NCBI RefSeq assembly: GCF_020099275.1
Contig: NZ_CP083646.1
Coordinates: forward strand, 2,232,001-2,296,000
DNA length: 64,000 nucleotides
Reading direction: 5' to 3'
Origin: Corynebacterium falsenii
GTDB lineage: Bacteria > Actinomycetota > Actinomycetes > Mycobacteriales > Mycobacteriaceae
Shown: piece after piece, positions 34,431 to 59,117 of the stretch
Layout: each line of letters starts with the position of its first letter
Numbering within the stretch: position 1 is the stretch's first letter
The notes under the pieces: model-generated
What the model saw: only the letters and a program-made list of their open reading frames with translations
Databases searched by the model: none
What the model was told of the DNA's origin: nothing
Translations under genes and position numbers: made by a program

Positions 34431-34443
34431 GGAGCACCCCGCC

Positions 34444-35148
34444 ATGACCCTCGAAACCCCCGCCCTCATGGCCGCCGACACCGCCGGCCGTTGCCGCAGC
34501 CTCCGGCTCACCGCCCCCGTCGCCGACGTGGACAGCCGCATCCGCCGCGTCGCCGACGGTCACCTCGTCATCGCCGATCTCGCCATCGACACCCTGATCG
34601 ACGTCCTTCTTGTCCTAGCGCGCCGCCTCGCCCCGCACGTCGACGATCTCAGCGACGATCTGGCCGGCATAATCATCGACCTCGATGCCGAAGCTATCGC
34701 CGTCGACGACCTCGATCATGACGACGTGACTTTTGGTGCGGCCTCTACGTCAGCCGCACGCCGATATCGCCCGGCTCATAACGACAAAACCCCGGTGACC
34801 TGCACGGTCACCGGGGGTTTTGTTTTTCACCTGTCAGGTTACATTAAACTTGAACTCGACCGAGTTCCGGCACAGACCAACCTTTTACGACCGATTACCA
34901 GGCCCGACCGCGCAGGTCGACCGCACCCACCGGCCAATCGGCGATCTCATCCTCAACCGGCAGGATCAGCAACGGCTGCCCCGGCGGGTCTTCGCGAGGT
35001 CGGCCTGACGTATCGATCGAACGCTCCGCAGCAGAGATCCGAGTCCAGCCGCACGAGGCGTAGAACGAGACCACCTCTTCACGACAGCCGAGATACCCGA
35101 ATGCGACGCCATTGGCTACCTTCATCGACTCCGCAGCAGCGCCCATGA
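34444..35148 (+). CDS. Unrecognised gene after ardA, 3' part probably false
   Basis: AAGGAG and an ATG 14 bp after the ardA stop give a good start. The first ~95 codons look protein-like (helical, acidic: LVIADLAIDTLIDVLLVLARR, DDLAGIIIDLDAEAIAVDD). The frame then runs through a strong terminator hairpin at 34785 and a ychF-end repeat, and over the acetyltransferase gene, which is unlikely to be natural. The gene was probably truncated by an insertion or deletion near 34740. No family recognised. Confidence 0.35.
   Translation: MTLETPALMAADTAGRCRSLRLTAPVADVDSRIRRVADGHLVIADLAIDTLIDVLLVLARRLAPHVDDLSDDLAGIIIDLDAEAIAVDDLDHDDVTFGAASTSAARRYRPAHNDKTPVTCTVTGGFVFHLSGYIKLELDRVPAQTNLLRPITRPDRAGRPHPPANRRSHPQPAGSATAAPAGLREVGLTYRSNAPQQRSESSRTRRRTRPPLHDSRDTRMRRHWLPSSTPQQRP
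34785..34826. terminator. Strong terminator hairpin
   Basis: A stem of about 14 bp (AAAACCCCGGTGACC paired with GGTCACCGGGGGTTTT, one unpaired G) with a 5-nt loop is followed by GTTTTT. It ends the ardA unit and is A-flanked on the other side, so it may work in both directions next to repeat S7. Confidence 0.85.
34834..34860 (-). repeat. ychF-end repeat S7 (codes VEFKFNVT-stop)
   Basis: Read on the minus strand, these bases give V-E-F-K-F-N-V-T-stop, the usual C terminus of actinobacterial YchF, though no ychF gene is here. It is followed (on +) by CGAGTTCCGGCACA, shared with S6. It is the most distal repeat of the array and may be the original chromosomal ychF end or an older insertion end. 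Confidence 0.75.
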
Positions 35149-35449
35149 GCCGACCCCCGACGCGCTCACCCCTCACAACATCAGAGATCAGTACTCCCCC
35201 GACACCGCCAATCTCGATCTCATCACCGCCGACGGCTATCGTCCGCCTCGCCCAACCAACATGCCCGACGATCCCCCCGCCTCTCCGTGCAATGACATGA
35301 ACGGCGTGAGGCGCATACCCGTACGGCATATCGGGGTCCCACTCACCGAAGTCATCCAGGTACTCGGCATCGAAGAGTCGACGCAACCCCTCGAGGTCAC
35401 TGGACGTCAGTTCCTCGTGCGCAACGATCTCGATCGCGACTTCTGGCAT
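34895..35449 (-). CDS. GNAT acetyltransferase, AAC(2')-like (cassette K6 cargo)
   Basis: A 184-residue single-domain GNAT protein. Visible are HVIARRGGGIVGHVGWARR, the acetyl-CoA loop region GVLISDVVRGERVGGRLM and FYASCGWTRI. Length and the C-terminal layout (LILPV, DWPVGAVDLRGRAW) resemble the AAC(2')-I aminoglycoside acetyltransferases of mycobacteria (which end ...CDWRAGDVW). It may modify an aminoglycoside or another amine; this is by eye only. The ATG at 35449 is favoured over a longer frame from 35536. It is the only gene in its ~0.7-kb cassette. Confidence 0.75.
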   Translation of the reverse strand: MPEVAIEIVAHEELTSSDLEGLRRLFDAEYLDDFGEWDPDMPYGYAPHAVHVIARRGGGIVGHVGWARRTIAVGGDEIEIGGVGGVLISDVVRGERVGGRLMGAAAESMKVANGVAFGYLGCREEVVSFYASCGWTRISAAERSIDTSGRPREDPPGQPLLILPVEDEIADWPVGAVDLRGRAW

Positions 35450-35576
35450 GCCCCCAAGCCTACGGCCGTCGTCATCGTGCGTCTGATCAACATCTCGAAT
35501 CGCCGACGTGCCGCTGGCCGACCTCGCGCAGGCCACCCTGAAGAGCCTCGATCAAGAGGAGTTGCAGCTTCAGAGG

Positions 35577-35600
35577 TTAGATCGAAAAGCGGAACTCCAC
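35577..35600 (-). repeat. ychF-end repeat S6 (codes VEFRFSI-stop)
   Basis: On the minus strand the sequence reads V-E-F-R-F-S-I-stop. Together with adjacent bases it forms GGAACTC-CACC-GAGTTCC, a perfect 7-bp inverted repeat around 4 bp. The 23 bp at 35592-35614 match S7's 34852-34874 except at one base. Confidence 0.75.
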
Positions 35601-35827: not shown

Positions 35828-37774
35828 CTATTCCTTCGCGAGCACGGCGTTATCCGTCAGGCAGAAGTCATCGTTGATCTTGATGATCAGCGCAACGAGT
35901 AGGCGGAGCGCTGTTAGATACGTGTGGCGGTGAACGCGGTCGTCGTCACCGTCTGCCTGTGATCCATGGAGGTAGCGGTTGCGCAGGCTAGGTCCGTTGC
36001 TGAACTCCTTATCGTTAAGGAAGTAGTTGAAGTAGCTGACCTCCGCGGCGCTGAGCAGCGTTGATCGATGCGTCAGCCATCCGGCGCTCACCATCTCGTC
36101 AATGGCTTTCTGGCCGGCCGCCGAGTGATGGAGACAGCTCGTCACCTCGCACTCCCAGAGTTCCTTGAGCACATGCAATTGTGGCGCGCTTGCAAACGCA
36201 ATTCGGTCACGATCTCCGGTCAGGATGCCCTTCTCGACCAGGAAGTCGATGTTGCGCTGTTGGTACTCGTGGAACTGGTCGTAGGCGATGTCATTGGCGA
36301 TGACCAAGTGCAGAAAGCTCTCTGCCTCCAGATCGCTGCTGATGTGCACCAATCCGGATTGGTCCGAGAAGAGCAGGTGCTGAATTCCTTGGATGTCTGC
36401 GTTGTTGGCAACGTAGGCGTACTTATCCACAACCTGACTCGGGATGTCGCCGTAGGAAAGCTGCTCCGATGTGATTGTCAGCAGCTCCGGGCCAACCTCG
36501 CCGTAGTCGACATGCAGCGTGAACTGCTTGAGGACGCTCTCCATCTCTGAGAACAGATGGCGGCTCTTCTCAAGGTAGGTAGCGGTCGGGCTGGAGGCGC
36601 GGTACTTCAGCCCCTTGGCACCGAACTCCTGCTCAAGGTAGTCCGTGAAGAACCAAGCGATGACCGACTCGAGCTCTATACCTTCGGAGCTGAGGAAGCG
36701 CTCGTACATCAAGGTCTGGAGCAAGGACGCCTGGTCCTGGAGCCTGAACGCCGCCCCCGTCCGGTAGTCGCCCTTGCCCGGCGTACCCATGAACCGCTCG
36801 AAGACGCCAAGTTGCGCTCCGTAGGAAGGGAGTTCCAGGAGCATGTGGTCGTTGGCGAACTGGAACAGGTGAACGAAGTTATTCAGGATAGTCGGGTAGT
36901 CGAGGTTCTCCGTGAGCCAGGTTCGACTGTAGGAGTACTTGCCAACCATGCCGTCCAAAGACTGGACGACCTCTTCGACCTGATCGGCCGAGATGCCCAC
37001 TTCGCAGCCGGTCTTGATCCCCTCCGTGGACTCGAACATCTTCTTCGTGAGCGCATCTGCCTTGCGACGAGCCTTTAGCTTCAGTCGTGCATCGACGCCG
37101 GTGTTCTTGTCAGCTCGTGCGGATGCGATCAGCATGACGAAGTTGAGGTTGGGCTCTTCCTCATCGAGGTAGCGGTCAAACAGGCCACGCTGATCCGCGG
37201 GAGTGAAGCTCTTCGGAAGATGGATTGGATCCCGCCCCTCGGACTGGAGGAACTTCCGCGCAAGCAGCTCAGCATTGCGCGGCCCAGCGAGTAGCAGGGC
37301 CCGAATCTCCTGGTCGTAGGCACGCACGAGTGCCTGGCATGAGAGCAGATCGTGCGGGTGGAAACTCTGCTCTTGAAGTGCAGCAAGCACGATCGAGTCA
37401 ATGCAGCGCTCGAAGACCTTGTTCTTTCCGAGGAGATCGAGGACGTCTGTGCGGTACTGAAAGTCAACGTCCTGAACGAGCGTTGAGAAGGTGGCGTCAG
37501 TCACTTTGCCGAAAAACCTGCCGATGACTTTCCGGATCTCGGGGAGGTGCGCCAGAGGCGCGTCTCGCTCTGCTTCGGCCAGGTCCTTCGGGAGAACTTT
37601 GTGTTCTAGGAACAACGCGAGATGATGCAACTCAACGATGTCGTTTATGCCTTGATCGCCACGAGTAGCATCGAATTCACGGACGAGCTCTAGGAGGCGG
37701 TCGGCCTGCCAGAAGGTTCCGTAGTCGCTGAGGCCGAAGAACTTCAGTCTCTTCTCTGGTCCGCTTTCCGACAC
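35828..37774 (-). CDS. Large protein with HEPN-like C terminus (cassette K5 cargo)
   Basis: A ~648-residue protein of no family I can name. It is helical and lacks membrane segments. Near the C terminus it has NGPSLRNRYLHGSQAD, an R-x4-H motif in the context typical of HEPN domains, which are RNases in many abortive-infection and toxin systems. I choose the GTG at 37774, which has GGGAGGGAG 6 nt upstream; a longer frame from GTG 37831 has no ribosome site. It is the only gene in its ~2.5-kb cassette, which suggests self-contained activity, perhaps phage defence. Confidence 0.6.
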   Translation of the reverse strand: MSESGPEKRLKFFGLSDYGTFWQADRLLELVREFDATRGDQGINDIVELHHLALFLEHKVLPKDLAEAERDAPLAHLPEIRKVIGRFFGKVTDATFSTLVQDVDFQYRTDVLDLLGKNKVFERCIDSIVLAALQEQSFHPHDLLSCQALVRAYDQEIRALLLAGPRNAELLARKFLQSEGRDPIHLPKSFTPADQRGLFDRYLDEEEPNLNFVMLIASARADKNTGVDARLKLKARRKADALTKKMFESTEGIKTGCEVGISADQVEEVVQSLDGMVGKYSYSRTWLTENLDYPTILNNFVHLFQFANDHMLLELPSYGAQLGVFERFMGTPGKGDYRTGAAFRLQDQASLLQTLMYERFLSSEGIELESVIAWFFTDYLEQEFGAKGLKYRASSPTATYLEKSRHLFSEMESVLKQFTLHVDYGEVGPELLTITSEQLSYGDIPSQVVDKYAYVANNADIQGIQHLLFSDQSGLVHISSDLEAESFLHLVIANDIAYDQFHEYQQRNIDFLVEKGILTGDRDRIAFASAPQLHVLKELWECEVTSCLHHSAAGQKAIDEMVSAGWLTHRSTLLSAAEVSYFNYFLNDKEFSNGPSLRNRYLHGSQADGDDDRVHRHTYLTALRLLVALIIKINDDFCLTDNAVLAKE

Positions 37775-38126
37775 TCGAATCTCCCTCCCGGTAGGCGTCA
37801 CTCTATACAGTTCGGGGGCGCCTAGTGGCACGAATTTGAAGTTGTTGCCTGATCGTCCAGCAGTCCCCTTGGGCGGAGCCGTCGTCCACGTCGATCGTTG
37901 CGCCGGCTCCTCGTTCTGTCGTGGAAGCGAGCCGAACTAGCGGCGCATCACCCCGAGGCGGACACGACCTACGTCTCCATGGGCATAATCCCGCGCCCCA
38001 TCGGGCTCCTCCCCACCGCGGAGCGGCGCACGACGGACGATGCACAACTACGGGGGTAGGTCCCTTGCAAAAGCGCCGGGCACTAGTCCTGACTCAACAC
38101 TCGACAAGAATCATCAACGAATCTCA
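37775..38126. other. Upstream region of the HEPN-like gene
   Basis: About 350 bp between the gene start and repeat S5. No gene seen; it should carry the promoter unless the gene is read from outside. Confidence 0.4.
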
Positions 38127-38343: not shown

Positions 38344-39891
38344 TTACTCGCACGCATTGCCCCGGTCAAGGTCGTGCGGCACGACGAAGCTGCGTATGGC
38401 GTCCGCCTCGTCGATCGCCGCGGCGAACTCCTCCTCGGTGGCCGAGCTCAGCAGCTCGAGGGGTGATCGGTCCGAGCCATCCGCGCCATGGGGCAGGTCC
38501 GGGTGCGGCGTCTGCCACCAGTCCAGTAGCGCCCTGGCGACGTCGGTCGGATCCGAGCCTCCGCAGGACCGGGCGAGCGCCTGGTTGATCTCGGCAAGCG
38601 CGTCGATGATCTTCCCGTCGCGGAACTGGAAGGCCGGATAGAACTTTGTCCCTCCGAGCTCGACCTCGATCACGACGTTGTGCTTGAGGTAGGTCCGCAG
38701 CAGGCTGCGCTGGGCGGCCTTCTTCGCGCGCGCCGCCTGCGCCGGGGTACGTGTCCGCTCCGCGTCGATCACTTCCGCCCCCGTCAGCGATGCGCGGGTC
38801 TCGGCGGCGGTCATGCACTCGGCTCGGTCGAGCAGGCTCGCGGCCATCATCGGTGAGCGGTCGAGCGCGAAGGCCCGATCCCAGATCGGGCTGCTCCTCC
38901 AACTGTCGGGGAATCCGAGCTGCTCCATGCCGAAGCCGACGGTGCGGGACTTCTCTTCGACGAAGTCGGCCAGGTCCACGACGTCGCCCTTCTCCGGCGC
39001 GATGCTCAGCAGGAGGTGGCGCAATACGAGCAGCACTCCGTAGAGCCTGTTGTTCGTCCCTTCTTCCGCGAGCGACGCGAGCAGGTCGTCGGCGTCCTTT
39101 CGAGCCTGCCCCGGCGCGTCGATGAGCACATCGAACGCGCGGTTCCACACACGGCCGTAGTGGGCGCAGATGTTCCGCACGTTCCTGAGGTTGTTGAGCC
39201 AGTTCCCGAGAGCGCCGCGATCTCCGTGGCCGTCGGCGGTGCGGACCTGGAACCGTGCCGCGAGGATCTCCTGGTCGGGCTGCAGCATCAGGTCGTAGAG
39301 GCTGCTCAGCACTCCGAAGGACATCACTTCTGTCGCGACCCAGATGGGCAGGTGCGGACCGTACTGCTGGCGGAAATGTACGACGAAGTCGCCCCGGGCG
39401 CGCTGCTCGTGCCGGTCGTACTCCTCGAGCCACTCGCGGTAGGCGGCGGTCGGCTCGGGCGGCGCGCCGGGATCTTCCTGCCTCGTCGCGCCGAGCGCCC
39501 AGGGGTGCCTGTGCGCGAACGCGTCGATCCTGCCGAGCCGGTGGCCGATGAAGAACCGGAAGGCCGTCTCGACGGTACCGAGGACGTCGCCGAGGCGCAT
39601 GCGCAGCTCGTGGTCGAACTCGTACAGCGAGACCACGTGCGCGAGGCCGGTCCCGGGCACGAACGTGTCCAGGCGGATCTCGCGGTCCTCTTCGTCGAAC
39701 CGGGGCGCAGGAGGAGCGGGCCGGTCACGGTAGAGGTGCCAGTAACCCGAGAGCCGGTAGTAGCCGTATCGCTGCAGGACCTCGGCCGCGTAGGCGTTGT
39801 CTCCGCAGTCCATGCCGCGCCCGCGCAGCCGGCGGATCTGCTCGGGGACCGTGAGGAACGGCTTGGCGTAGGTGCTGTTCGGGGTCGTCAC
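38344..39891 (-). CDS. Abi_2 (AbiD/AbiF-like) abortive-infection protein (cassette K4 cargo)
   Basis: A 515-residue protein. Residues ~8-300 match the Abi_2 family: PFLTVPEQIRRLRGRGM, YYRLSGYWHLYR, LYEFDHELRMRLGDVLGTVE and IWVATEVMSFG, then the HEPN-type motif LRNVRNICAHYGRVWNR near residue 240. Abi_2 proteins such as AbiD/AbiF block phage growth at the cost of the cell. About 215 extra C-terminal residues, with a basic helical stretch (RTPAQAARAKKAAQRS), are longer than the usual ~300-residue family. It starts at a GTG at 39891. The cassette also holds an IS1380-type insertion. Confidence 0.85.
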   Translation of the reverse strand: MTTPNSTYAKPFLTVPEQIRRLRGRGMDCGDNAYAAEVLQRYGYYRLSGYWHLYRDRPAPPAPRFDEEDREIRLDTFVPGTGLAHVVSLYEFDHELRMRLGDVLGTVETAFRFFIGHRLGRIDAFAHRHPWALGATRQEDPGAPPEPTAAYREWLEEYDRHEQRARGDFVVHFRQQYGPHLPIWVATEVMSFGVLSSLYDLMLQPDQEILAARFQVRTADGHGDRGALGNWLNNLRNVRNICAHYGRVWNRAFDVLIDAPGQARKDADDLLASLAEEGTNNRLYGVLLVLRHLLLSIAPEKGDVVDLADFVEEKSRTVGFGMEQLGFPDSWRSSPIWDRAFALDRSPMMAASLLDRAECMTAAETRASLTGAEVIDAERTRTPAQAARAKKAAQRSLLRTYLKHNVVIEVELGGTKFYPAFQFRDGKIIDALAEINQALARSCGGSDPTDVARALLDWWQTPHPDLPHGADGSDRSPLELLSSATEEEFAAAIDEADAIRSFVVPHDLDRGNACE

Positions 39892-40182: not shown

Positions 40183-41888
40183 CCTCGATGTTTCATGGGG
40201 CTGGTGAGCGGGGTGGGTCGGCGTCGTTGCCGGTGTTGAGCTGCTGATTCTGGCATTCGGGTATGACAGATCGTCGCAGTGTCCGTTGCAGGCGGTCGGG
40301 TTCCACTCCCGAGAAGAGGAGCTGCTGGTCGTAGGGGCGGGTGGTCTCGCCGGGTTAGGTCTGTGCGACGGTGGTGCGGAGCCGGTTGACGCCGGTCAGG
40401 CCCCTCACGGCTTCGGGTGCATGTTCGGCGAGGTGGAGGACCTTGTGCCGGGCGCGGCGCACGAGGGTCGCGGGGATCTCGAACAACCGCGCGCGGAGCC
40501 GTTTGGGTTCCCATTTCCTCGCGTCGTGCCTGGTGAAGGCGATGGTTTGCATCCAGGCGACGAGCTCGGAGGCGAGTTGGATGATCTGGCACCAGATCTG
40601 GTTCTGCGCGAAGCCCTGCAGCGGGAACTTCTCAAGGCCCATGTCCTTGGCGTTACGGATCCGGTCTTCGCAGCGTGCACGGCGACGGTGCCGCAGTTCC
40701 AGGACGGGAAGCTGGCCGCGCGGGGAGTTGGTGGCGAACGCGGTGATGCGCATCCCCTCGTGATCGGTGATCCGCAGCTGCGCCCCAGGATGAGGACGTT
40801 CCTTCCGCACGATCACCCGCATCCCGGGCGGCCAACCCTGAAGATCCAGCAGCTCGGTCAGCTCCGCCACCCATGTCCCCTCGCGGATCCCCTCGTCCTC
40901 GCTGTCGTAGGCGGGGGTCCACGCCTTTGCCTCGTCGATACGTTCCAGTAGGTCAGGCGCGTTCGCAGGCAGGGTGAACCCGACCGAGTAGGCCAGACGC
41001 TGCCGCTGGAGCCAGGCCAGGAAGTCTTTGGTGCCGCCGGCCCCGTCGGTGCGGATCAAGATCTTCTTCGATCCCCGACCACCCCGAGCCAGCAGGCCCG
41101 CAGGCAGCTGGGCCAGAGCGTCACGGGTGACGGTGATGTGATCAGCGGCCGTGTTCGAGCCGGCGTTGCCGGGGCGCAGCTGGATCGCCAGTGGTTCCCC
41201 GGTCCCGTCGCTGCCGTGGTCAAGGAACGCACACAACGGGTGGTATCCGAAGCCGCGTTTGAACGTCGGTGCGGCCTGCTCCTTCTCACTGTGGGCGGTG
41301 ATCAGGGTGGCGTCGAGGTCGATGACCAGCGGGCTCTTCACGCTCGCCCCCACAGTCGGAGAATGGTCTCCGGCCAGGGCCCAGGCCTGTTCACGCGCGG
41401 CCCGGCGGGCTTTCGAGATCGCCTCGATCACGGTGGGCGCGTCCTGGGCGAGGGTGGTGAGCGTGCGGGAGATCGTCGGGGCCGAGGCGACATTACCGAA
41501 CAGGCCCGGCTCGCAACGCAGCAGATCAGTATCCGAAGCATGCTCCCCGCCGATTGCGAGAGTGAGTGCGAGGTCCAGCAGGACCTTCGCCGCGTGGTGC
41601 TCGGCCAGCGGCTTCGTCCACGGAGCCAGTGCTTCCCGCAGCGAAGAGGCGAGGCCGGTGGCGTGGATCGCGTCGGTCAGCAGCACCGCACCAGCATGCG
41701 AGACCGCTGGAACCGGGGCGATGTCCACGCGCGGGCGGGGGTAGAAGAACAAGGTAGGGTGGGACACTTGAAAGGTGCTCCTTCCAGTGGATGGCTACGA
41801 GCTTCAACACCCCGTATCATCCCAGGCCAGGAGCACCTTTCTCTATGCCTCCCACCCATCGAGACCATACCGCTATGAAAACTCGAGG
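40183..41888 (-). mobile_element. IS1380-family insertion sequence
   Basis: A 1.7-kb element with inverted ends CCTCGATGTTTCAT / CCTCGAGTTTTCAT and a 4-bp target duplication TTAA on both sides (40179-40182 and 41889-41892). Removing it and one TTAA restores a continuous cassette K4 sequence. It is a clean, probably recent insertion. Confidence 0.85.
40355..41767 (-). CDS. IS1380-family transposase
   Basis: A 470-residue DDE transposase of the IS1380 group. Landmarks: VIDLDATLITAHSEKE (first Asp, about residue 150), IRTDGAGGTKDFLAW (second Asp, about 240) and the C-terminal YREKG-like region with RCEDRIRNAKDMGLEKFP (Glu, about 365). It fills most of the element. Confidence 0.88.
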   Translation of the reverse strand: MSHPTLFFYPRPRVDIAPVPAVSHAGAVLLTDAIHATGLASSLREALAPWTKPLAEHHAAKVLLDLALTLAIGGEHASDTDLLRCEPGLFGNVASAPTISRTLTTLAQDAPTVIEAISKARRAAREQAWALAGDHSPTVGASVKSPLVIDLDATLITAHSEKEQAAPTFKRGFGYHPLCAFLDHGSDGTGEPLAIQLRPGNAGSNTAADHITVTRDALAQLPAGLLARGGRGSKKILIRTDGAGGTKDFLAWLQRQRLAYSVGFTLPANAPDLLERIDEAKAWTPAYDSEDEGIREGTWVAELTELLDLQGWPPGMRVIVRKERPHPGAQLRITDHEGMRITAFATNSPRGQLPVLELRHRRRARCEDRIRNAKDMGLEKFPLQGFAQNQIWCQIIQLASELVAWMQTIAFTRHDARKWEPKRLRARLFEIPATLVRRARHKVLHLAEHAPEAVRGLTGVNRLRTTVAQT

Positions 41889-41978: not shown

Positions 41979-42005
41979 TTAGACGTTGAACCTGAATTCA
42001 ACCAC
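41979..42005 (-). repeat. ychF-end repeat S4 (codes VVEFRFNV-stop)
   Basis: The minus strand reads V-V-E-F-R-F-N-V-stop, identical to the typical bacterial YchF C terminus. The site contains GTTGAA...TTCAAC, an inverted repeat around 6 bp, as expected of a serine-recombinase site. AACGTCTAAA here also occurs at S2. Confidence 0.8.
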
Positions 42006-42097: not shown

Positions 42098-45000
42098 TCA
42101 GTGCAGCCGGCGCCGGAAACGTTCTGCGTCCTCCTCGTTCCGTCGTGCGTCGTTTTCGTACGAGACAGCGATTCTCCTAAACAAACCAGCCACCCGAGGC
42201 GCGATGTCGGCGAATGCTTGGGCCTTGACTCGATAGTCCGCAGCAAGCCTGAGCTCCTGCTCGCCACCGTCTTCCAAGCCGCGACTAGTAACTCCACGAC
42301 TATTAAGGATATAGAGGTACAAGCCGGTCTCAATGTGATCAAGCTGCACTTCTTCAATGAGATCCCGCACGACGTTGCCCGGCCAGGTGCCGTCAGCGTC
42401 TGGTGGGGTGTGGCCGAGAACCTGGCCAATCTGCTGCAGGCCGACCTCGGTCCGGCCTCGTTCAGCCAGGAGCTCCATAGCTCGATCAAGCCAGGCTCGA
42501 AGCACCTCGGCATTCATGACGCCATCGACGAGGCCGGGCGGTGTGTCCCATGCATTGAGTAAGCGGTACGCACTGGTTGTCAGGGAAGCGTCGCATTGTT
42601 CTTCGCCAGCCGGGTCCTCGGCGCCTTCTTCGTCCTCACCGCTCGGCCGGGCACGGTAAACAGCGCACACGATCTCGACGAATTTTGCAGGGTCGGCAGC
42701 TAAACTTTCGGATAGCGCTGGGACTCTCGCGTCATAGCCGAGCGCCGGAAGGTACGACCACTGCAGTCGAACAAGACAGCCAGGCTCAAGGTGCTCGCGC
42801 ATAGCTTCGAGGTAGGCGAAGAGCCGCTGAAAATCATAGGACGATAGATCACGAGCAGCGGCAGATGGAGTTTGATCTGCCAGGAGCCCGTCCAGTGCTC
42901 GCACAATGAGTTTCGCTACCTGGGGACGCGGACCGTCCTTGTCGATGTAGGTGTACATGCTCATGAGATGTACAACGTCGGCGTGGCGGCCAACTTGGAT
43001 CAGGTGCTCAGCAATCTCGTCGATCTTGTCAATGTCTTGCCCCAAGCCGATTGTCTGGAATTCCCTCCAGTACCGGGCCTCAAGATCCGGGTCCGTATCA
43101 ACCAGAGCCCATACCTCCGCGAGGTTGTCGCGCGCGACAAGCAGGAGTCGAACACGTTGATCGACCGTAAGATCGCTCTGTTCAAGGAAGTCTGTGATCA
43201 GAGCGAAACCTTCTAGGGAATAGCGAGTCGAGAAATACGACATCGCGGTGCTGGCGAGATCCTGGTCGGCAGACGTCAACCAACCGAGCAATTCATCATC
43301 GTGCGACGAGCCGATTTTCGCCAAGGCGATACCAACGGCCCCCGGCACCGACGCGTCTCGTGCCAGTCTCGTGATGGCGTCAAAACCGCCCTCGGCCTCG
43401 ATCTTCTCTACGGCTTGGACGCGTCGGCGCCCGAGCTCACGTTCAAAGGCTTCATAATCATCTTGTCTGTGAGCGCCGATATACGGAGTCCATGATTGAA
43501 AGAGTCCGATCAGTCGGACATACGCGGACTTCGGCTGGTAGCGCGCTGCCAGTGCGTCGAGCTTGCCGAGCTCCTCGTCGGGAAGTGTCCAGGCAGCATC
43601 CGGAAACTCGCGATGACGGCCGATGAGGTCCACCAGGGTTCGCCACACCGCTTCTCGAAAGTCAGCCGTAAACTGCGGCTGGTCGGCCATCGATTCGAGA
43701 GCATCCACCACTCGCGCTCGGTCTTCTGGTGGTAACTCTGCCGTGTGAGAAAGGATCGTTGACCAGCGCTGCGCATCCTGACCAGCATCTTCGATGCAAC
43801 TCTCTACCGCGGCGGTCGTCATCTTCCAGAATTCGCCGTATGTCACAGATAGTTTGTCCGGCCTCCAAGTTCGGAACGCAGGTGTACTAATCGGGAAATG
43901 TGTCCCGTGCCCCTCAGGAAGCATGCTGCACTCCAACTTCCAGGCGACGCCAGGGCGTCTTCGGCGCAACGTGTCGAGGACAATAAGTCGCCGGTCAGGA
44001 TCGACAGAGCTATCTGGATGCCACGGGCGGAATATTGCAGCCAAAGAGGCCGCGGGACGGTTAGCCATCCGACCACCCGGATCGATCTCGTCAAGGCGTG
44101 CCAGGAGATCGACAGCACGTCCGAAATGATTAGAGGACCAGGACACGCACTCGAGCGCCCACAGCAGATTGCTGTGGGGAGTTCCGCCCGAGAAGATTCC
44201 CGGTTCGTCGGCGTTGTCCTGGAACATGGTGGCCAATAGAGGGGCATCGCCCGCTGTTGCTGCACTGACCGCATCGAGGAAGGCGTCCGGCCCGGCCTCA
44301 GCGAGGAGGGGCAAGATGTCAGCTAGTGATTGCCACGCTCGCCCGGTATCATCTGTCGACGCCCATTCGAGTAGCTTCCCAACCAGATAGTTTGCGAAGT
44401 CTGACCCTGATACTCCACCCGACAAGACGATAGTTTCGCCGTACATTCCCAATAGAGCGAGCGACTGAGCGAGGCCGCGGCGGAGGTCACCGGAGTAGCG
44501 ACGGGTTTTGCCATCAATCGATGCTCTCCACCGTTGGTCCCGCGGCAGGTCGAGGGCCGGATCGCCCTCTGCGAAGACCCTCTCGACGATGGTCTCGAAC
44601 CGCTTCATGTCATCGTGAGTCAGCTTCGACACCAACAGCATCCAAGCATCCACCGGTGAGACAAGATGCCAAGCTTCGCCAGTGCGGATTACCAGAGGAT
44701 CGGTAGGATTGTCGGCTATTCCTGTGATCGCCTCTCTAAACGACTCGTAGTCGGTTCCCGTGAGCACCTCGAGGATCGAACGATCCCCTTCTGCATTGTC
44801 TCCCCAGGAGCCAGCCAACAGGATTGATCGGAAGTTTCGGGACGGACTCGCATCAGCCCAGGTCGGTCGATGCAGGACGGCCTTTACAGCCAAGTTTCGC
44901 CGCAGACCGGTCAAGCTTCGCCGTGCGAGCCTACCGAGCTCATCGACCCTATCTCTATCTGTGACTCCGGCGCTCGTCAGCGCGACTGCTGCCTCAGCAG

Positions 45001-52026: not shown

Positions 52027-53916
52027 ATGATGGACGGGACGGGGGCACGGATGTCTGAGGGGTACTCGACGGTCCTCCGGTGGGAGGGTGTCGCCAAAGC
52101 GGACGTCAAGCCGAGGATGCGCCATAACGGACGTGAAGCGGAAGAAGAAGCCGGCATCGTGGCGGTGCACGGCAACGAGTTGATCAACGCCGCGATGACA
52201 GCACGCAACGAGTCCTACATTTGGCCTGACGGGGTACGTGAACCGCTGACGGGGCCGAACCCGATCGGCCAGATGTACGCCGTGGCTGAGGCGCGGTGGT
52301 CCCAAGCCCAACACGCCCGGTTGAACAAGAAGACAGGCGAGTACACCCCGCGCGGCACCCCATCGAACGCGGCACACGTGGCTGAGTTCGTGCTGCAGCT
52401 GGATCCGAAGTTCACCGGGCCCAGTTGGAGTCAATTCGAGGACACCTTCGAGGACGGCGCGGTGGCCTACCTTAAGGAGCTGGAGCGGCGCCGCGATCAC
52501 TTCGCTGAGGCGTTGGAGTCGGCTCGTATAACCGGTGAGGACTTCTACGAGGCCCAGCTTGACGCCGAGGGTGCTCAGATCGAACTTGAAGAAGGTCGTG
52601 AGGACGTAGACCGCTGGCGCGGAACCATCACCGAACGCCGGGAGGCGACGGACACGCTTCTGCGCGCGATGATCGACAAGGTCCACGAGTGGATGGATGT
52701 CGACGGTACGAAAGCTAGCCTCGTCTCCGACCACATCCATCATGATGAGACGAGCCCTCATGCCCAGATCTTCGCCGTCCCTGTGGGTGACGAGCGTGAG
52801 CTGCCGGGCGGCGTGACGGAGAGAAAGCTCTCTCTCAAGCAGCTGCTCGTCGGCCACTCCCCGACCCGATCCGAGGCTCAGTGCAACTACTCCGAGCGAC
52901 ACGACGAGATGCGCAGCCACATCAATGACGTCGCCCGGGCCCACGGCATCGACTACGTGGCGACGATGGAGCGCGTGGACAGCCAGCGGTCGAATCTGGG
53001 CAAGACCCAGTTGCGTCGTCACAGGGCCGAGCAGCTGCGCCAGCGGATGCATGACATGCGGGTCGCCGATAACGTCGTGGAGGCCGGTGACCGGCTCAAG
53101 GACCTGGCCTCGCGTGAGGCAGCGGTGACCGCGCGCGAAGAGGCTCTGAGCGAGCGTGAAACGGCTGTGGCTGGTCGTGAAAACTCGCTCCGCACTGAGA
53201 TGGATAAATTCAACGACCACGTCAGTAAGAAGCGGACTGAGTGGGCCGCCCGAGAGGAATCGGTCGCCACGATCGAAAAGAGGGCCACCGAGACGCTCGC
53301 CGAGGCTGAGGCGCCAGAGATCCGTCGTCTGGCGAAGGCTGCCGGCACGGTTGAGGCGCAGAGTGATTCCGACCGCATCCGCAGCGAGGCTGACGACTAC
53401 GCGGCCCAGACGAAGGATGCGGCGGATCAGGTGCTGCAGAAGGCTCAGGCCGATGCGCGTCGTCGACGGGAGGAAGCCGACGAGCTCGTGGCCGAAGCCG
53501 AGCGGGAGCGCCAGGCTGTAGTGGCTGACCGTGAGGCCGCCGCTCAGCAGCGTGCCCGTGCGGCGACCGCGCTCGTCGATGCAGAGGAAATGCTTTCTTC
53601 GGTGAAGTCGATCCCCGACTTCAACCCAGCCGTACTCGACGGCGACACCCGCGACGCCATGAAACAGGTCGACGCTGACTTCCTTGACCGGCTCTGCGAG
53701 CAGAGCCCGAAGATAGCAGGGATGCGTGAGCGTGAGCACGGATCCCTGTGGGTGAAGAACCAGGCGCAGCGCGACCTGGCCAACCGCACCGTCGAGGAGA
53801 ACCGGCTCCGCGCTCGGCGCCTCCGTGAGCGCATGGATAGTCCAAAAATGGGCCGGGAAGACCGGAGCTGGCAGGAACGTCACCGCGGCCCCTCCGGCCC
53901 GCAGGCGAACTTTTAG
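52027..53916 (+). CDS. MobV/Pre-family relaxase
   Basis: A 629-residue relaxase. The N-terminal domain (residues ~10-290) has the family's start (GYSTVLRWEGVAKADVKPRM), the E/D-rich middle and the metal-binding motif SDHIHHDETSPHAQIFAVP (about residues 233-251, H-x-HHDE-x3-PH). A coiled coil follows (about 310-560). MobV enzymes nick oriT and start conjugal transfer. An ATG at 52051 (MSEGYS) is an alternative start. It is intact, unlike the MOBQ relaxase at 26.5 kb. Confidence 0.88.
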   Translation: MMDGTGARMSEGYSTVLRWEGVAKADVKPRMRHNGREAEEEAGIVAVHGNELINAAMTARNESYIWPDGVREPLTGPNPIGQMYAVAEARWSQAQHARLNKKTGEYTPRGTPSNAAHVAEFVLQLDPKFTGPSWSQFEDTFEDGAVAYLKELERRRDHFAEALESARITGEDFYEAQLDAEGAQIELEEGREDVDRWRGTITERREATDTLLRAMIDKVHEWMDVDGTKASLVSDHIHHDETSPHAQIFAVPVGDERELPGGVTERKLSLKQLLVGHSPTRSEAQCNYSERHDEMRSHINDVARAHGIDYVATMERVDSQRSNLGKTQLRRHRAEQLRQRMHDMRVADNVVEAGDRLKDLASREAAVTAREEALSERETAVAGRENSLRTEMDKFNDHVSKKRTEWAAREESVATIEKRATETLAEAEAPEIRRLAKAAGTVEAQSDSDRIRSEADDYAAQTKDAADQVLQKAQADARRRREEADELVAEAERERQAVVADREAAAQQRARAATALVDAEEMLSSVKSIPDFNPAVLDGDTRDAMKQVDADFLDRLCEQSPKIAGMREREHGSLWVKNQAQRDLANRTVEENRLRARRLRERMDSPKMGREDRSWQERHRGPSGPQANF

Positions 53917-54035: not shown

Positions 54036-55625
54036 TCAGTTCCACTCAATGGTGACCGAGCTCGGGTCAAAACCTTTTTTCCCTTGTCTCGCCTTATGAA
54101 GGGTGACGGTGCACAGTGCCGTGATCACTGCCCGGCGTGTGTCCAGGTCTGCCTCTAGAAAGGTCGTCGCAGGGTCGTCTGTGCTGAGGAGAGGGACGGT
54201 CGTGGCCCCGTGTGCCAGTGTGAGTTTCTCAGTCTCCAATGTGTCGATCTTCTGCTTAGACTGGTCACGGATGCGTTTAAGGTCGGCGGCCTCGATCAGC
54301 TCCTCGTCGTAGTCTCGTTCAGCTCGCGCGATCCGCGCGTGCTGAATGTCGATCTCGCCGATGATCTCTGTGAATCGTGGGCCCTCGCTGCCAGGTACTG
54401 TCTCCAGAACGTCAGGCTGTCGTAGTCGCTCGGCGATGACGGCCTGCACAAAGGTGTCGATGGCCTCTGCCGTGCGGTTGACGTGCCCCTTGGTCTTGCA
54501 CCGGTAGCCCGTCTTACCGCCAAGGTTCGCGCTTCTCACCCGGTTTTCGCACCCGTCGACGCCGCATCGGTAGATGCCGCTGCCCAGATGCGTTCTCGCT
54601 ATGTTTGTGGTGGTCGCGCGGCTCGGGTCGTCGAGAATTGCCTGCACCGTGTGCCAGGTCTCCACGTCGATCAGCGACTCCCACTGCCCCATGATGGGCT
54701 GACCGGCCTCGTCGGTGACGATGAACTGTCTCCAGTCCTTGCGCTTACCGCGGTAGGGCCCTCCAGCTTCGACACGAGCCCGGTTCTCAAGCCTCGCCTG
54801 CCGACGGGCCTTTGTCGGCGTGTACGCCGAATAGCCGGTGTACCTCGGGTTTCTGAGGATGCCGAGTACGCTGCTCGGGTCCCACGGCGTGTCAGCAGGC
54901 ACCGGCCTGGGCTCAAGACCTTCGGCGACGCGCTTGGCGTTGCGCTCGAGCGCGAGTGTTCGTGTGTGCTTGGTGACCGTCGGGATCTGGCTCCGTCCAT
55001 CCTCTGGTGTACCGCTTAACGCACGAGCGATGCCGCGGAGCGTGCCTCCTGAGACGAACGAAGAGTAAATCGCGCGAACTGCATAGGCCTCTTTCTCAAT
55101 GACGTCACCGTCAACGGAATAGCCGAGTGGCCGCACACCTTTGGGCGCGCGTCCTTGTTCCGCACGTTGTTTCTGTGCGCGTGATTGGCGCGCGGACTTG
55201 CGTTCCATCTCTGCGCGGGCGACGGCAGCCTTGATGCGGGCATACATCCTACCGCCGTCCGTGCTTAGATCGGCGTCACCATTGGCGGTCACCAGTGCCA
55301 GGCCATGGCTCTCGGCCCGGTCTATCCAGTCCTCCAGCTCTCGCGGCTGGCGCGTGAGACGGTCGAGGTCGTAGCAGATGATGGCGCTGAACCTGTCGGC
55401 CTCGTAGTCCGTGACCATGCGTGTGTACGCGGGCCTGACCTTGGTCTTGTCGGTAGCACTGACGGACTGATCGACATAGATCTCGACAACGTCCCAGCGT
55501 CGGTATGCTGCGAGGTTCTCACAGTCCTCGCGCTGGCGGTCGATGGCCAAGCCGTCCATCTCGCGGTCCTGCGAGATGCGGAGGTAGATGGCGGCCTTGC
55601 GAGTGTCTTGTGGTGGCGGGTTCAT
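54036..55625 (-). CDS. Large serine recombinase (integrase) of cassette K2
   Basis: A 529-residue large serine recombinase. The catalytic domain (residues ~10-150) has AAIYLRISQDRE with the nucleophile Ser about residue 18, YDLDRLTRQPRELEDW and RMYARIKAAVARAEMERKSAR. A recombinase domain (about 165-290: RPLGYSVDGDVIEKEAYAVRAIY, WDPSSVLGILRNPRYTGY), a zinc ribbon (YRCGVDGCENRV...YRCKTKGH) and a coiled coil (about 430-480) follow. It is convergent with the relaxase gene. Its start lies 20 bp from repeat S2, so it most likely acts at these ychF-end sites. Confidence 0.9.
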   Translation of the reverse strand: MNPPPQDTRKAAIYLRISQDREMDGLAIDRQREDCENLAAYRRWDVVEIYVDQSVSATDKTKVRPAYTRMVTDYEADRFSAIICYDLDRLTRQPRELEDWIDRAESHGLALVTANGDADLSTDGGRMYARIKAAVARAEMERKSARQSRAQKQRAEQGRAPKGVRPLGYSVDGDVIEKEAYAVRAIYSSFVSGGTLRGIARALSGTPEDGRSQIPTVTKHTRTLALERNAKRVAEGLEPRPVPADTPWDPSSVLGILRNPRYTGYSAYTPTKARRQARLENRARVEAGGPYRGKRKDWRQFIVTDEAGQPIMGQWESLIDVETWHTVQAILDDPSRATTTNIARTHLGSGIYRCGVDGCENRVRSANLGGKTGYRCKTKGHVNRTAEAIDTFVQAVIAERLRQPDVLETVPGSEGPRFTEIIGEIDIQHARIARAERDYDEELIEAADLKRIRDQSKQKIDTLETEKLTLAHGATTVPLLSTDDPATTFLEADLDTRRAVITALCTVTLHKARQGKKGFDPSSVTIEWN

Positions 55626-55644
55626 GCCCCTAAGATTACCGTTT

Positions 55645-55668: not shown

Positions 55669-55720
55669 GACATGGCTTAAACCTCTGGTTACATAGGGGT
55701 CAAGGGTGCGGGTGACCAGC

Positions 55721-57244
55721 TCAAAACAGTACGTTCTGCGGCTCCTGGTCGAGCTGGCCGAACCGACCCGGCATGTCTGCTGCCCTGGCAGGGTCGAACT
55801 CGACGCCCGCCTCAGTGGCGACGGTCAGGGCCTGACCAAGCACCTCATCCACATCGATCTGCAGACGGTTCAGATCGAGACGCGCCAGCAGCTTCTTGGT
55901 GATCGGCCGCTTAGAGTCCCAGAAGACCAGCGACTCGATCAGGTCCACGCACGGCTGCGACTGCAAGACAGCGGTGACCATAGCCGCCTCAGTGCCATCT
56001 TCAAACGGCAGTAGGTAGCACGTGTCGTCCATCACCACGGGTTTGTCCGCCAGTGGAGCCACCAGACGAAAACGTGGTTCCTTATGAAGTCCCGACACCA
56101 CGACTTTGTACGGCGCGAACGTGTAGTCACCGTGACCGAAGACGGAGAACCGCGGCCGGTTGCGATAGATAGAGGACTTACGTCCGTCCACCACCTCAGC
56201 GTTACGTGTCAGGTAGCTCCACAACCGCGGAGCGGTGTGCTCCAGGTGGTCTGTATTGTCGCCAAACTTCATCTGGGGAACGATCACCCACTTCGTCAGC
56301 TCACGATGACGGCCACGGAAGATATCCGTGCTCTTCAGGAATGGGTACAGGTACTGCTCCTCAATATCGAGGACCTCACCAGCCTTAGTTGTCGGCTCCG
56401 GTGCTGCCTTGAGTTCGAAAACCTTTGATGCGTCATGCTTGAGGCCTGATCGCCACGTGTAAGGGCTGGTTCCGTCGGCCTGGCGCACCTCAGCATAACG
56501 CTGCACATTAGAGACCATGACCCCATCGACCACACCGAAAGCCTTAGCCGGGGTCTCCCCCGGGTCGAACAGGTCCCCGTAGATATTCGCGTGGTAGCTG
56601 GCCGGAGCGTGTGGGTCGACGCTGACCACGAAGAAACAGGCATCCACGCCTGCGTTGAACCACTTCTTCGCGTCGATCGGGTAGATGCCTGAGCCATTGA
56701 TCTTGATGCCGACCTGGTGCGCATGCTCGATGACATTGCGTGCCACCTGAGTCTTGCAGAGCATGCCTAACCTAAATGTTTGCCCGGCGAGCTCCTTGAG
56801 CATCTTCAGAATGATGTATTCACACACATCGAAGTTCGAGCCGCCCAGCATGGCATCGAGCCCTTTAGCGCCCTTGAAGTTCTCCTTCTTCGGGATATTC
56901 CCCGACTCCATGCGAGCAAGGTCCGCGGAGTTGACCCACGGAGGGTTGCCGACCACGAATAACAGCCCGTCAGTATCCCATGAAAGTGTGTTCCCCACGT
57001 GATTGTCGAACACGTTTGCCTGGGTTACCCGCCCCCACTGGCCGGCCTCTGCGGCATAAACCTCGTTGATCTCCAAACCGACACGCTCACTACCTGGAGC
57101 CAACTCTTGTGCAGCCTGCAGGAACGCCCCCACACCGCACGTGGGCTCGAGGACGCGGGCATCGGAGGAGATATTGAGAACCTCCAAGCACCGCTTTGCC
57201 AGGGCTAACGGGGTTTGAAAGTCACCGAACTCATTATTAGCCAT
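55721..57244 (-). CDS. DNA N6-adenine methyltransferase of a type II RM system (cassette K1)
   Basis: A 507-residue adenine methyltransferase. Motif I is VLEPTCGVGAFL (about residue 31-42) and the catalytic motif IV is VGNPPWVNS (about 97-105). The N terminus FGDFQTPLALAKRC is the motif X/Q region of Eco57I/TaqI-like enzymes. A target-recognition domain fills the C-terminal half. It should protect host DNA from the partner nuclease. The ATG at 57244 overlaps the nuclease stop by 8 nt, so the two are coupled. A longer frame from 57280 is not favoured. Confidence 0.88.
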   Translation of the reverse strand: MANNEFGDFQTPLALAKRCLEVLNISSDARVLEPTCGVGAFLQAAQELAPGSERVGLEINEVYAAEAGQWGRVTQANVFDNHVGNTLSWDTDGLLFVVGNPPWVNSADLARMESGNIPKKENFKGAKGLDAMLGGSNFDVCEYIILKMLKELAGQTFRLGMLCKTQVARNVIEHAHQVGIKINGSGIYPIDAKKWFNAGVDACFFVVSVDPHAPASYHANIYGDLFDPGETPAKAFGVVDGVMVSNVQRYAEVRQADGTSPYTWRSGLKHDASKVFELKAAPEPTTKAGEVLDIEEQYLYPFLKSTDIFRGRHRELTKWVIVPQMKFGDNTDHLEHTAPRLWSYLTRNAEVVDGRKSSIYRNRPRFSVFGHGDYTFAPYKVVVSGLHKEPRFRLVAPLADKPVVMDDTCYLLPFEDGTEAAMVTAVLQSQPCVDLIESLVFWDSKRPITKKLLARLDLNRLQIDVDEVLGQALTVATEAGVEFDPARAADMPGRFGQLDQEPQNVLF

Positions 57245-57998
57245 TGGAGACATCACCGGCTGCGGCGTGGCGCAGATCAACTACCTCGGGGAGGGCGACC
57301 TTCTCCGTTGCTGCCTTAATGGCACGGTTATACTGCAGCCGCCACTGCAACGCGTTAGAGATGGTGATGTAGCCCTGCAGTGGCGGGTCAGCGACGATTT
57401 GCTCAGCGAGCGTGATGCGGCCGGCATCATCGAGCGGTACGTTCTTGTCCTGAAACAGCGCGTCCAGTTCGTCGATTGCGACATCCCGGTCATGGGGCCC
57501 GTCACCCATGTCATCGAGAATGGCCCGAATCATCCGGGTCAGCGTGTAATCGCCGGTGCGGTCCTCGTCAATGTAGATTACGTGATCGATATCCAGACGC
57601 GCTGTCTGAGCCTCAACGTCATCAGTCTTCGTGTACACGACGACAAGTAGATTGTAACCGAGCCCATAAACCTTCTGACTGGCGTTACGGAACGGGCACG
57701 ACGACTGAGGCTGCCGCGAAGAGGTCACCTTGAGGTCAGTGTTCAGGCTCGGGAAGTCGAGTCCTTTTGCAGCATTACCGATCTCGAAGTTGTAGCTCTC
57801 CTCCAAGAACGACTTGAGCCGCGCCTCGACCCAGGTACCCACTGCCTTGCCGTCGGTGACACCATACAGCTCAGGAACATCGTGGCGCGACAGTTTATCA
57901 GCAAACTCCCTGGCAGCTTGCTGGAACAGCTCCAGCGTAAGAGGAGGTAACGACACTTCGCCAGCTCCGTCGATTATTTTATCTTCGTGATTATCCAT
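57237..57998 (-). CDS. Type II restriction endonuclease (cassette K1)
   Basis: A 253-residue protein with a PD-(D/E)XK-like core: GTWVEARLKSFLEE (Glu about residue 57), GLDFPSLNTDLKVTSSRQPQSSCPF (D...D-L-K, about residues 80-104). This DFPSLNTDLKVTS/QPQSS signature recurs in type II endonucleases paired with such methyltransferases; the recognition site cannot be predicted. Its ATG is only 6 bp after the ychF stop, so it is probably read from the ychF transcript. Confidence 0.82.
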   Translation of the reverse strand: MDNHEDKIIDGAGEVSLPPLTLELFQQAAREFADKLSRHDVPELYGVTDGKAVGTWVEARLKSFLEESYNFEIGNAAKGLDFPSLNTDLKVTSSRQPQSSCPFRNASQKVYGLGYNLLVVVYTKTDDVEAQTARLDIDHVIYIDEDRTGDYTLTRMIRAILDDMGDGPHDRDVAIDELDALFQDKNVPLDDAGRITLAEQIVADPPLQGYITISNALQWRLQYNRAIKAATEKVALPEVVDLRHAAAGDVSNG

Positions 57999-58004
57999 GG
58001 GTAA

Positions 58005-59117
58005 TTACTTCTTACTCCCAGACGTTAATCCAGTTTTGAACTCCACCACGTCACCGTCGGCCATGATGTAGTCCTTGCCCTCCTGGCGGACCTTGCCGTG
58101 CGCGCGAGCCTCCGCCATGGAGCCCGCCTCGTCCAAGTCCTCGAAGGACACGATCTCAGCCTTAATGAAGCCGCGCTCGAAGTCCGTGTGGATCACGCCC
58201 GCCGCCTGCGGGGCGGTGGAACCCTTCTTGATCGTCCACGCGCGGGACTCCTTCGGGCCAGCCGTCAGGTACGTCTGCAGCCCCAGAGTCTCGAAGCCCG
58301 CCTTAGCCAGCGTCTGCAAGCCCGGCTCCGTCTGCCCCACCGATTCCAGCAGCTCGGCGGCTTCCTCGTCGTCGAGCTCCAGCAGTTCGGCCTCCGTCGC
58401 CGCGTCGAGGAACACACAGTCAGCCGGAGCGACGAGCTGGCGAAGTTCGTCCTTGCGGGCGTCGTCGAGCAACACCGACTCGTCCGAGTTGAACACGTAC
58501 AGGAAGGGCTTGGCGGTCATCAGGTGAAGATCACGGACGCTCGCCAGATCGATCTCGCCGTTGGTGGCGGCAGAGGACAGTGTGCGGCCATCTTCGAGAA
58601 TCGTCTGGGCAGTCTTGGCACCCTCGACCTGCTCGGCGATCTCCTTATTCTTGCGGGCTTCCTTCTCCAAACGCGGCAGAGCCTTTTCAATGGTCTGCAG
58701 GTCGGCGAGGATGAGCTCAGTCTCGATCACAGAGATGTCGCTCGCGGGATCGACCCGGCCATCAACGTGAATCACGTTGTCATCGGAGAAAGCACGGACA
58801 ACCTGGCAGATCGCGTCCGCCTCGCGGATGTTGGCGAGGAAGGCGTTGCCCATGCCTTCGCCGTCCGAAGCGCCCTTGACGATGCCGGCGATGTCCACGA
58901 AGGACACCGTGGCGGGAAGGATGCGCTCCGAGTTGAAGATCTCGGCCAGGCGGGTCAGGCGCGGGTCTGGCAGTTCCACCAAGCCGACGTTCGGCTCGAT
59001 GGTGGCGAACGGGTAGTTCGCAGCCAGCACATCGTTGCGGGTCAGGGCGTTAAACAAGGTGGACTTACCAACATTGGGCAAGCCGACGATTCCGAGAGTC
59101 AAAGTCACACTGCTCAT
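58005..59117 (-). CDS. ychF: YchF/OLA1-family GTP-dependent nucleic acid-binding protein with altered C terminus
   Basis: A 370-residue Obg-related GTPase/ATPase, a cytosolic ribosome-associated stress factor. The G1 motif GLPNVGKS (about residues 10-17), G3 DIAGIVKGAS (about 72) and NSDES-type G4 region (N-x-x-E in place of NKxD) are as in YchF, followed by the coiled coil and the C-terminal TGS domain. The family ends VVEFRFNV; here VVEF is followed by KTGLTSGSKK, encoded by the inserted cassette K1 through repeat S1. The ATG at 59117 fits the family start (MSSVTLTLGIVGLPN). This end swap defines the integration site. Confidence 0.93.
   Translation of the reverse strand: MSSVTLTLGIVGLPNVGKSTLFNALTRNDVLAANYPFATIEPNVGLVELPDPRLTRLAEIFNSERILPATVSFVDIAGIVKGASDGEGMGNAFLANIREADAICQVVRAFSDDNVIHVDGRVDPASDISVIETELILADLQTIEKALPRLEKEARKNKEIAEQVEGAKTAQTILEDGRTLSSAATNGEIDLASVRDLHLMTAKPFLYVFNSDESVLLDDARKDELRQLVAPADCVFLDAATEAELLELDDEEAAELLESVGQTEPGLQTLAKAGFETLGLQTYLTAGPKESRAWTIKKGSTAPQAAGVIHTDFERGFIKAEIVSFEDLDEAGSMAEARAHGKVRQEGKDYIMADGDVVEFKTGLTSGSKK
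58020..58043 (-). repeat. ychF-end repeat S1, current integration junction in ychF
   Basis: The 24-bp core inside the last codons of ychF is identical to S2 at 55645-55668, in the same orientation, 2375 bp apart. It marks the chromosome-proximal end of cassette K1. Upstream of it the sequence is normal ychF (ADGDVVEF). Confidence 0.9.

Follow-up and report, generated by a model that had tools for sequence, protein, structure and literature searches.

A cassette array with repeated gene ends at the 3′ end of ychF in Corynebacterium falsenii and its relatives

The described systems closest to the locus reported here are the staphylococcal cassette chromosome (SCC) elements and the integrons. 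For composite SCC, excerpts of PMC3900703 cite eight site copies in S. epidermidis ATCC 12228 and name restriction-modification and metal resistance among the cargo, as is also found in the arrays described below, and units without recombinase genes appear as pseudo-SCC in an excerpt of PMC4651549. At ychF, the gene considered here, pneumococcal prophages lie upstream, which is a different place, and a defective one may switch ychF expression (excerpts of PMC8637289 and PMC10383233); the mention of ychF in an excerpt of PMC6951406 concerns completeness. Titles and abstract starts in the literature reported no arrays and no insertion by large serine recombinases (LSRs) at the 3′ end of ychF, with most subscription papers and preprints lying outside the scope of that search. 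Here we analysed a stretch of 64,000 nt (the window) from the closed 2.68 Mb genome of Corynebacterium falsenii (assembly GCF_020099275.1, contig NZ_CP083646.1, positions 2,232,001 to 2,296,000), in which copies of the ychF end are repeated downstream of the gene. We consider it probable that the 3′ end of ychF heads a cassette array, in which most units open at a GT within a valine codon and bring a stand-in YchF C terminus with its stop codon, and that this array was built by successive insertions through an LSR specific for ychF.

Repeated ychF ends in the window

Sites were scored against a matrix of 79 ychF ends, one of which is that of the window; being derived from coding ends, this matrix tolerates third-position changes, and the stop codon lies outside it. 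The gene, the sites (S1 to S7) and the units between them (K1 to K6) are as follows.

58005..59108, minus strand: ychF, PF06071 match of 131 bits, the sole one in the genome; ends in GDVVEFKTGLTSGSKK and a stop, this end being supplied by K1
58005..58046, minus strand: S1, left end of K1 within ychF, with GT at 58046-58045 followed by the replacement end and stop; 12.0 bits
55629..55671, minus strand: S2, right arm of K1, GT, left end of K2 (VEFKTGLTSKR, stop); 10.9 bits
46069..46092, minus strand: S3, rejected as a boundary; 12.1 bits, genome G069 being collinear through it
41979..42002, minus strand: S4, right arm of K3, GT, left end of K4 (VEFRFNV, stop); 29.0 bits
38127..38150, minus strand: S5, right arm of K4, GT, left end of K5 (VEFRFNN, stop); 19.3 bits
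35577..35600, minus strand: S6, right arm of K5, GT, left end of K6 (VEFRFSI, stop); 4.6 bits, identity of K5 with two genomes stopping here
34834..34860, minus strand: S7, right arm of K6, GT, next left end (VEFKFNVT, stop); 32.4 bits, exact match to the genome-wide pattern

Judged purely by score, S4, S5 and S7 are the sites that stand well above chance; with plus-strand matches in the window reaching up to 11.4 bits, S1, S2, S3 and S6 are indistinct. S2 was accepted because it has 24 identical bases (GAGTTC...ACGTCT) in common with S1, and S6 because the cassette K5, shared with G036 and G016, ends there; the identity of K5 to G036 begins at S5 and ends at S6, which confirms both. The left arm TGTGCCGGAACTCGGT is common to S6 and S7, and the left arm of S4, GGATATGGAATGTGGT, recurs in G069 at the first site of the next stretch, after a K3-like region of 4.6 kb, which confirms S4. 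Between window positions 46719 and 42160, G069 runs collinear with the window and shows no break at S3. This rules out S3 as a cassette boundary, so that the sites number six and the units they bound five (K1, K2+K3, K4, K5 and K6). The first-pass annotation of this DNA had listed seven ychF ends on the minus strand, bounding six cassettes between 34834 and 58043. All seven sequences are present at these places and six of them hold as sites, and S1 is, as it stated, the end of the real ychF; S3 and the count of six cassettes have to be given up, and the limits were drawn too narrowly. In the window, matches to the native ychF-neighbour genes of relatives are confined to about 1.3–6.8 kb, so that the foreign DNA extends from about 6.8 to 58.0 kb, an island of about 51 kb.

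Sites and units across the genus

The genus sample comprised 121 Corynebacterium genomes, of which 119, including the window's own, had a ychF match. About 20 kb 3′ of ychF was taken from 99 of the other 118 genomes, giving 100 loci (L052–L151; L071, a second stretch of G068, was omitted, and L068 is just 5 kb), and the ychF end was found in 97 of these, L141 and L144 being the loci where it was not. Within the 1,869,608 bases scanned downstream, 84 sites of at least 19 bits were on the ychF strand, against none on the opposite strand and one in reversed sequence, which disposes of the concern that comparable matches might occur in control sequence. Repeats of the ychF end, proposed by the first-pass annotation as something to seek in other genomes, were indeed present downstream at 38 of the 97 loci, 17 with one site and 21 with two to five, leaving 59 with none. 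An exact degenerate pattern of the site was also run over the 121 whole genomes; among the 150 matches listed, 61 were ychF itself, 75 were on the same strand within 40 kb downstream (35 genomes) and 14 were elsewhere, five of them on the ychF contig (three in G035, the others in G092 and G108) and nine on other contigs, and the reversed pattern gave no match in any of the 121 genomes. At L064, L070, L072–L075, L117, L120–L122, L126, L139, L140 and L148, YchF ends in CDFKIGG rather than FKFNV and the usual site is lacking; no downstream site of at least 19 bits was found at these loci in the stretch scanned, and this type of end is perhaps an escape from insertion.

Comparison of related genomes revealed whole units present in one and absent from the other, with exact empty sites, and the breakpoints of such units lie inside the site cores of about 25 bases. 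G019 and G058 have flanks that are 99.4% identical, and the compared 300 bp of ychF are identical; a 17.5-kb unit is present in G019 and absent from G058, and further out a pair of units of 1.4 and 3.2 kb in G019 replaces a 4.7-kb unit of G058. Likewise, G075 has a 2.1-kb unit that G053 is without, G053 has a 3.2-kb unit that G078 is without, and G119 has a 15.0-kb unit that G061 is without. Units of 1.4 kb in G042 and 0.8 kb in G067 are followed by native flank related to that of G099 at 76–78%.

Near-identical cassettes were furthermore found at loci with strongly diverged ychF genes. A 3.2-kb mercury (mer) cassette is 96.2–99.8% identical among 12 loci whose ychF genes are 68–96% identical, and it lies directly at ychF or inside arrays. 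In a whole-genome search, 16 genomes had at least 3,027 of its 3,251 bases at 97% identity or more, on the ychF contig in 15 and on another contig in G070. Plasmids were considered as vectors of this cassette and rejected; inner mer genes are 95–99% identical on four plasmids, but none of the 17 matching records covers 80% of the cassette, and for the LSR identity was below 60% in all 167 matching plasmid records. K5 is 98.2% identical to G036 over 2,567 bp, where ychF is 77% identical, and in G036 the left end of K5 is directly at ychF (98.5% over 600 bp); the K5 body is also 98.2% identical to G016, ending at S6, with a ychF identity of 81%.

Exchange point, recombinase and competing explanations

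For mapping the exchange, sites were grouped by shared left or right unit and set against pairs of unrelated sites. Where the left unit was shared, internal pairs (n = 133) had a mean identity of 0.95 over the 18 bases left of the GT, which dropped to 0.47 just right of it (unrelated pairs 0.45) and to 0.34 beyond base 20 (unrelated 0.30); at third codon positions right of the GT, too, they were close to unrelated pairs. Pairs with the same right unit (n = 183) showed 0.39 left of the GT (unrelated 0.41) and 0.94 over bases 21–40 (unrelated 0.30). At the third codon positions from the GT to base 17, same-right and unrelated pairs gave 0.53 and 0.45 (base 2), 0.85 and 0.66, 0.72 and 0.57, 0.56 and 0.51 (base 11), 0.70 and 0.56, and 0.83 and 0.55 (base 17). 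Left-hand linkage stops at the GT in the valine codon, which is the left edge of the repeat, and the stand-in end belongs to the right-hand unit from about base 17–20, the core before it not being cleanly assigned. Since right-unit linkage is full from there, at least the last part of the new gene end arrives with the cassette; that everything right of the GT travels with it was also considered, and the unrelated-pair baseline bears this out only from about base 17–20. The clearest single case, G053/G078, with GACGTG-GT-A at the empty site and GACGTG-GT-G and CATACC-GT-A at the occupied ends, fits exchange at the GT.

Of 90 internal sites, 82 have an in-frame stop within 10 codons, which in 69 is codon 7 itself; the other frames give 29 and 44. 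Copies of one left end differ from each other 350 times at third positions and 72 times at first or second ones. Together these patterns suggest selection for a working YchF C terminus. Units of the GLTSGSKK type alter YchF directly after V-E-F-K/R. By eye, many right arms resemble ...CGACAYNCC or ...GGAACNNG, and some resemble neither; the arm ...CGACAYNCC ends the LSR-bearing units of G069, G068, G037 and G033, but a different arm closes the LSR unit of G035 and the remnant unit of G059. Arm classes may correspond to recombinase subfamilies.

The candidate enzyme is encoded in K2, directly beyond S2.

54036..55625, minus strand: LSR of 529 amino acids, Pfam Resolvase PF00239 at 100.9 bits and Recombinase PF07508 at 51 bits

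Both LSR domains exceed their Pfam cut-offs and the protein is of LSR length; its best phage match is the serine integrase of Microbacterium phage SuMoo (34.8% identity over 96% of the query). LSR homologs at E ≤ 1e-20 are present in 28 of the 121 Corynebacterium genomes. At E ≤ 1e-50 there are 18 such genomes, with the gene no more than 10 kb downstream of ychF in 14 (on the opposite strand in G106), and the remaining four are G035 and G050, which have ectopic arrays, G051, where the contig has no ychF, and G064, where it is 49 kb off. A named collection of 14 loci, from Tersicoccus, Tessaracoccus, Schaalia, Gordonia, Rothia, Actinomyces, metagenome-assembled genomes and one C. glyciniphilum (whose contig is also G003 of the genus sample), had the LSR within 2 kb of a YchF-type end at 10 loci, eight found by script and two (L154 and L161) by eye.

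In the proposed mechanism, a cassette would pass through a circle that carries one site, consisting of a right arm (often of the two kinds above), the central GT, and a left end encoding V-E-F-K-F-N-V-stop or a variant such as V-E-F-R-T-G-L-T-S-G-S-K-K-stop. Crossover, placed exactly at the GT, would join ychF to the left end of the cassette, giving YchF a new last 7–13 residues, and the old gene end would be left at the far side of the cassette as an internal site. The LSR would be the enzyme, also moving recombinase-free units in trans, and the coding pattern would exist because each left end must serve as a working YchF C terminus. The ychF promoter would drive genes that start a few bases past the ychF stop, among them the K1 nuclease gene and certain LSR genes.

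Several observations weigh against this account. No downstream site is present at the 59 loci mentioned above, ectopic arrays occur in G035, G050, G092 and G108, and the empty ectopic site that matches the G035 insertion has no GT. The identity of K5 to G016 starts 58 bp past the ychF stop, with a left end differing from that in G036. A palindrome test around the GT was not decisive and placed the best centre in most settings 8 bases to the right, and the third-position pattern of the left ends is partly built in by the ychF-end matrix with which the sites were selected. At E ≤ 1e-60 the LSR is found in 4 of 394 genomes class-wide; an LSR homolog at E ≤ 1e-20, in some cases weak or a remnant, is present in 12 of the 35 genomes with a downstream match in the genome-wide pattern search, and several arrays have short LSR remnants alone. 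Of the 21 genomes with at least two downstream sites, four have an LSR homolog at E ≤ 1e-20 and 17 have none, a count that covers the first ~19 kb downstream, which one LSR unit of 14–17 kb can fill. Finally, the third positions between the GT and about base 17 are weakly tied to the right-hand unit, despite mer bodies of 96–99.8% identity, and a single fixed crossover does not explain this. These last two points favour a history in which the LSR made a few ancestral insertions but plays no part in moving small cassettes, units being gained and lost through homologous recombination or replication slippage at the ~20-bp repeats or at longer flanks; the weak tie of third positions to either neighbour looks as if there were several exchange points. 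We nevertheless regard this course of events as unlikely, since left linkage breaks off at a single dinucleotide, on the left edge of the repeat, and does not fade along it, the mer cassette with both its ends has different neighbours in 12 loci, and right-arm motifs are common to units with different cargo.

An ordinary hotspot for prophages and integrative and conjugative elements, at which independent LSR elements inserted serially and then decayed to cassette-like remnants, would account for the LSR-bearing units of about 14–17 kb at ychF, for the LSR together with a weakly MobV-like gene in K2, and for the LSR remnants in arrays. Such an origin may stay true for the LSR-bearing units, but as a whole we regard this reading as unlikely; its strong form is opposed by units of 0.6–3.2 kb that are found again, both ends included, in several genomes and in differing orders, which independent decay would not give. 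Chance, finally, would operate through GAGTTC...stop strings being common in a genome of 62% GC; the scores of S1, S2, S3 and S6 indeed exceed the top plus-strand match of the window slightly or not at all, and S3 is no boundary, but 84 against 0 sites in 1.87 Mb and the absence of the reversed pattern from 121 genomes refute it for the whole array and make it exceedingly improbable. Successive site-specific insertions, each bringing a substitute gene end and pushing the older one outward as the first-pass annotation had proposed, fit the empty sites, the GT at the left edge and the distal end that follows the cassette. That the array was driven by serine recombination is something we infer, since most array genomes examined are without an LSR homolog at E ≤ 1e-20; the LSR may act in passing or in trans, or may have been lost after the array was formed.

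Cargo, and comparison with known systems

Foreign genes of the window were annotated with Pfam, PADLOC and NCBIfam models, giving the following features besides the LSR.

57237..57998, minus strand: K1, type II restriction endonuclease (PADLOC REase_II, E 1.1e-70); ATG six bases past the ychF stop
55721..57280, minus strand: K1, type II DNA methyltransferase (PADLOC MTase_II, E 2.7e-113); limits are those of the open reading frame (ORF), and the true start may be further in
52027..53916, plus strand: K2, protein with weak likeness to MobV relaxases (NCBIfam MobV 25.9 bits, under the curated cut-off of 100)
42098..45919, minus strand: K3, uncharacterised protein of 1273 amino acids; conserved gene, 97.4% DNA identity to G069 over 4.6 kb
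40355..41767, minus strand: K4, insertion sequence (IS) transposase, DDE group 1 (PF13701, 259.8 bits)
38344..39891, minus strand: K4, AbiD/Abi_2 abortive-infection protein (PF07751, 143 bits; PADLOC AbiD, E 4.7e-54)
35828..37831, minus strand: K5, PDC-S56 phage-defence candidate (PADLOC, E 1.1e-245); unit in G036 and G016 at 98.2%
34895..35536, minus strand: K6, GNAT acetyltransferase (Pfam Acetyltransf_9, 37 bits)
6800..34833, no strand assigned: outer rearranged part of the island, with a copper-oxidase segment and two IS240-type transposase genes
8894-9604 and 25711-26421, opposite orientations: the IS240-type transposase genes, with equal Pfam scores

The K3 protein has 410 relatives at E ≤ 0.001, the best 120 of which are 46–97% identical; it matched no Pfam, PADLOC or NCBIfam family, and no named function was found among the 120 relatives listed. 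As it travels as array cargo, it is a candidate defence protein. A resistance label for the K6 acetyltransferase was rejected, since the NCBIfam AAC(2') models gave 19–28 bits and none reached its cut-off of 350–400.

In other arrays, a chosen subset of 94 excised units was annotated from the longest ORFs, a choice that was wrong for at least one. This was the commonest cassette, for which ORFs of 685 and 208 amino acids were on the wrong strand; its true gene, on the opposite strand and antisense to ychF, is merA (mercuric reductase TIGR02053, 554 bits, cut-off 454). The earlier assumption that cargo is read in the direction of ychF therefore fails in the genus, and K4 also has an IS. The annotated subset further contained a heavy-metal P-type ATPase, a multicopper oxidase, an ArfB-like hydrolase, a Dyp-type peroxidase, ApeA, a ThsB-like TIR protein with SLATT, an Erm-family 23S ribosomal RNA (rRNA) methylase above the broad Erm cut-off, and further units without a family. 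At L099, the Erm-family rRNA methylase (9795-10691) and the heavy-metal P-type ATPase (11873-13804) lie in adjacent units, in a block common to G053, G075 and G078.

The copper-oxidase segment at 9659-17707 corresponds to a unit of other arrays and is inverted in the window; one of the IS240-type transposase genes sits at its edge, and the inversion is likely an IS-driven rearrangement. A matrix scan of the window found no ychF-end remnant of at least 10 bits at the outer edge of the island.

Among the ectopic arrays, that of G035 (L166, 1943-12683) consists of an LSR unit and cassettes, and comparison with the empty place in G064 (L199) shows an exact insertion without duplication; ychF of G035 ends in CDFKIGG and is without the usual site. 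A 1,408-bp cassette occupies an identical ectopic place in G108 (L171, 1194-2602) and G092 (L170, 1462-2870), where both ychF genes also end in CDFKIGG and no clean empty site was found, and a unit equal to it in length and with like ends is found in the ychF array of G019.

The ychF arrays share with SCC a serine recombinase, a conserved housekeeping gene whose 3′ end is the insertion point, and tandem units bounded by repeated site copies, including units without a recombinase. They differ in that the target is ychF and not rlmH/orfX, and the window LSR reaches 65.9, 41.7 and 30.3 bits on the NCBIfam CcrB, CcrA and CcrC models, with cut-offs of 900, 700 and 900. In further contrast to SCC, many units measure just 0.6–4.7 kb and have one gene or a few, the order in which small cassettes recur changes from species to species, and units supply 7–13 variable codons of the target protein. 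Integrons likewise have small exchangeable cassettes with shared ends, in differing orders across genomes, and cargo of the defence and resistance type; here, however, no IntI exceeded its cut-off in the genome of the window (seven weak matches to TIGR02249), left linkage ends at a GT in a gene end, a housekeeping gene is the entry point, and genes are also antisense. An Rfam search of window positions 6000-60000 (54 kb) gave no match, the arms not having been searched with an attC model. The window LSR is of the type of the actinobacteriophage serine integrases, but the annotated small cassettes contain no phage genome, and the site pattern had no exact match in a viral contig collection.

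By the tests made, the ychF arrays work like SCC accretion with integron-like cassettes and are a member of neither; the portable gene end, if taken as the defining trait, could make them a new kind. We tentatively propose, at close to evenly balanced confidence, a third cassette-array system beside integrons and SCC, built by a serine recombinase, in which a housekeeping gene is the entry point, each cassette is fronted by a portable working C-terminal end, and each insertion gives YchF new final residues, keeping the gene functional and bringing the newest cargo under its promoter. If so, Corynebacterium would have its own means of gathering genes for defence, heavy-metal resistance and rRNA methylation in one place, in the form of small cassettes. 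Each unit bounded by a pair of sites would be a source of candidate defence genes, and YchF would offer a natural example of a conserved GTPase whose C-terminal end is exchanged again and again. The LSR and its short site might also find use as a tool in genetics, and the system as a whole would stand beside the integron as its serine-recombinase counterpart.

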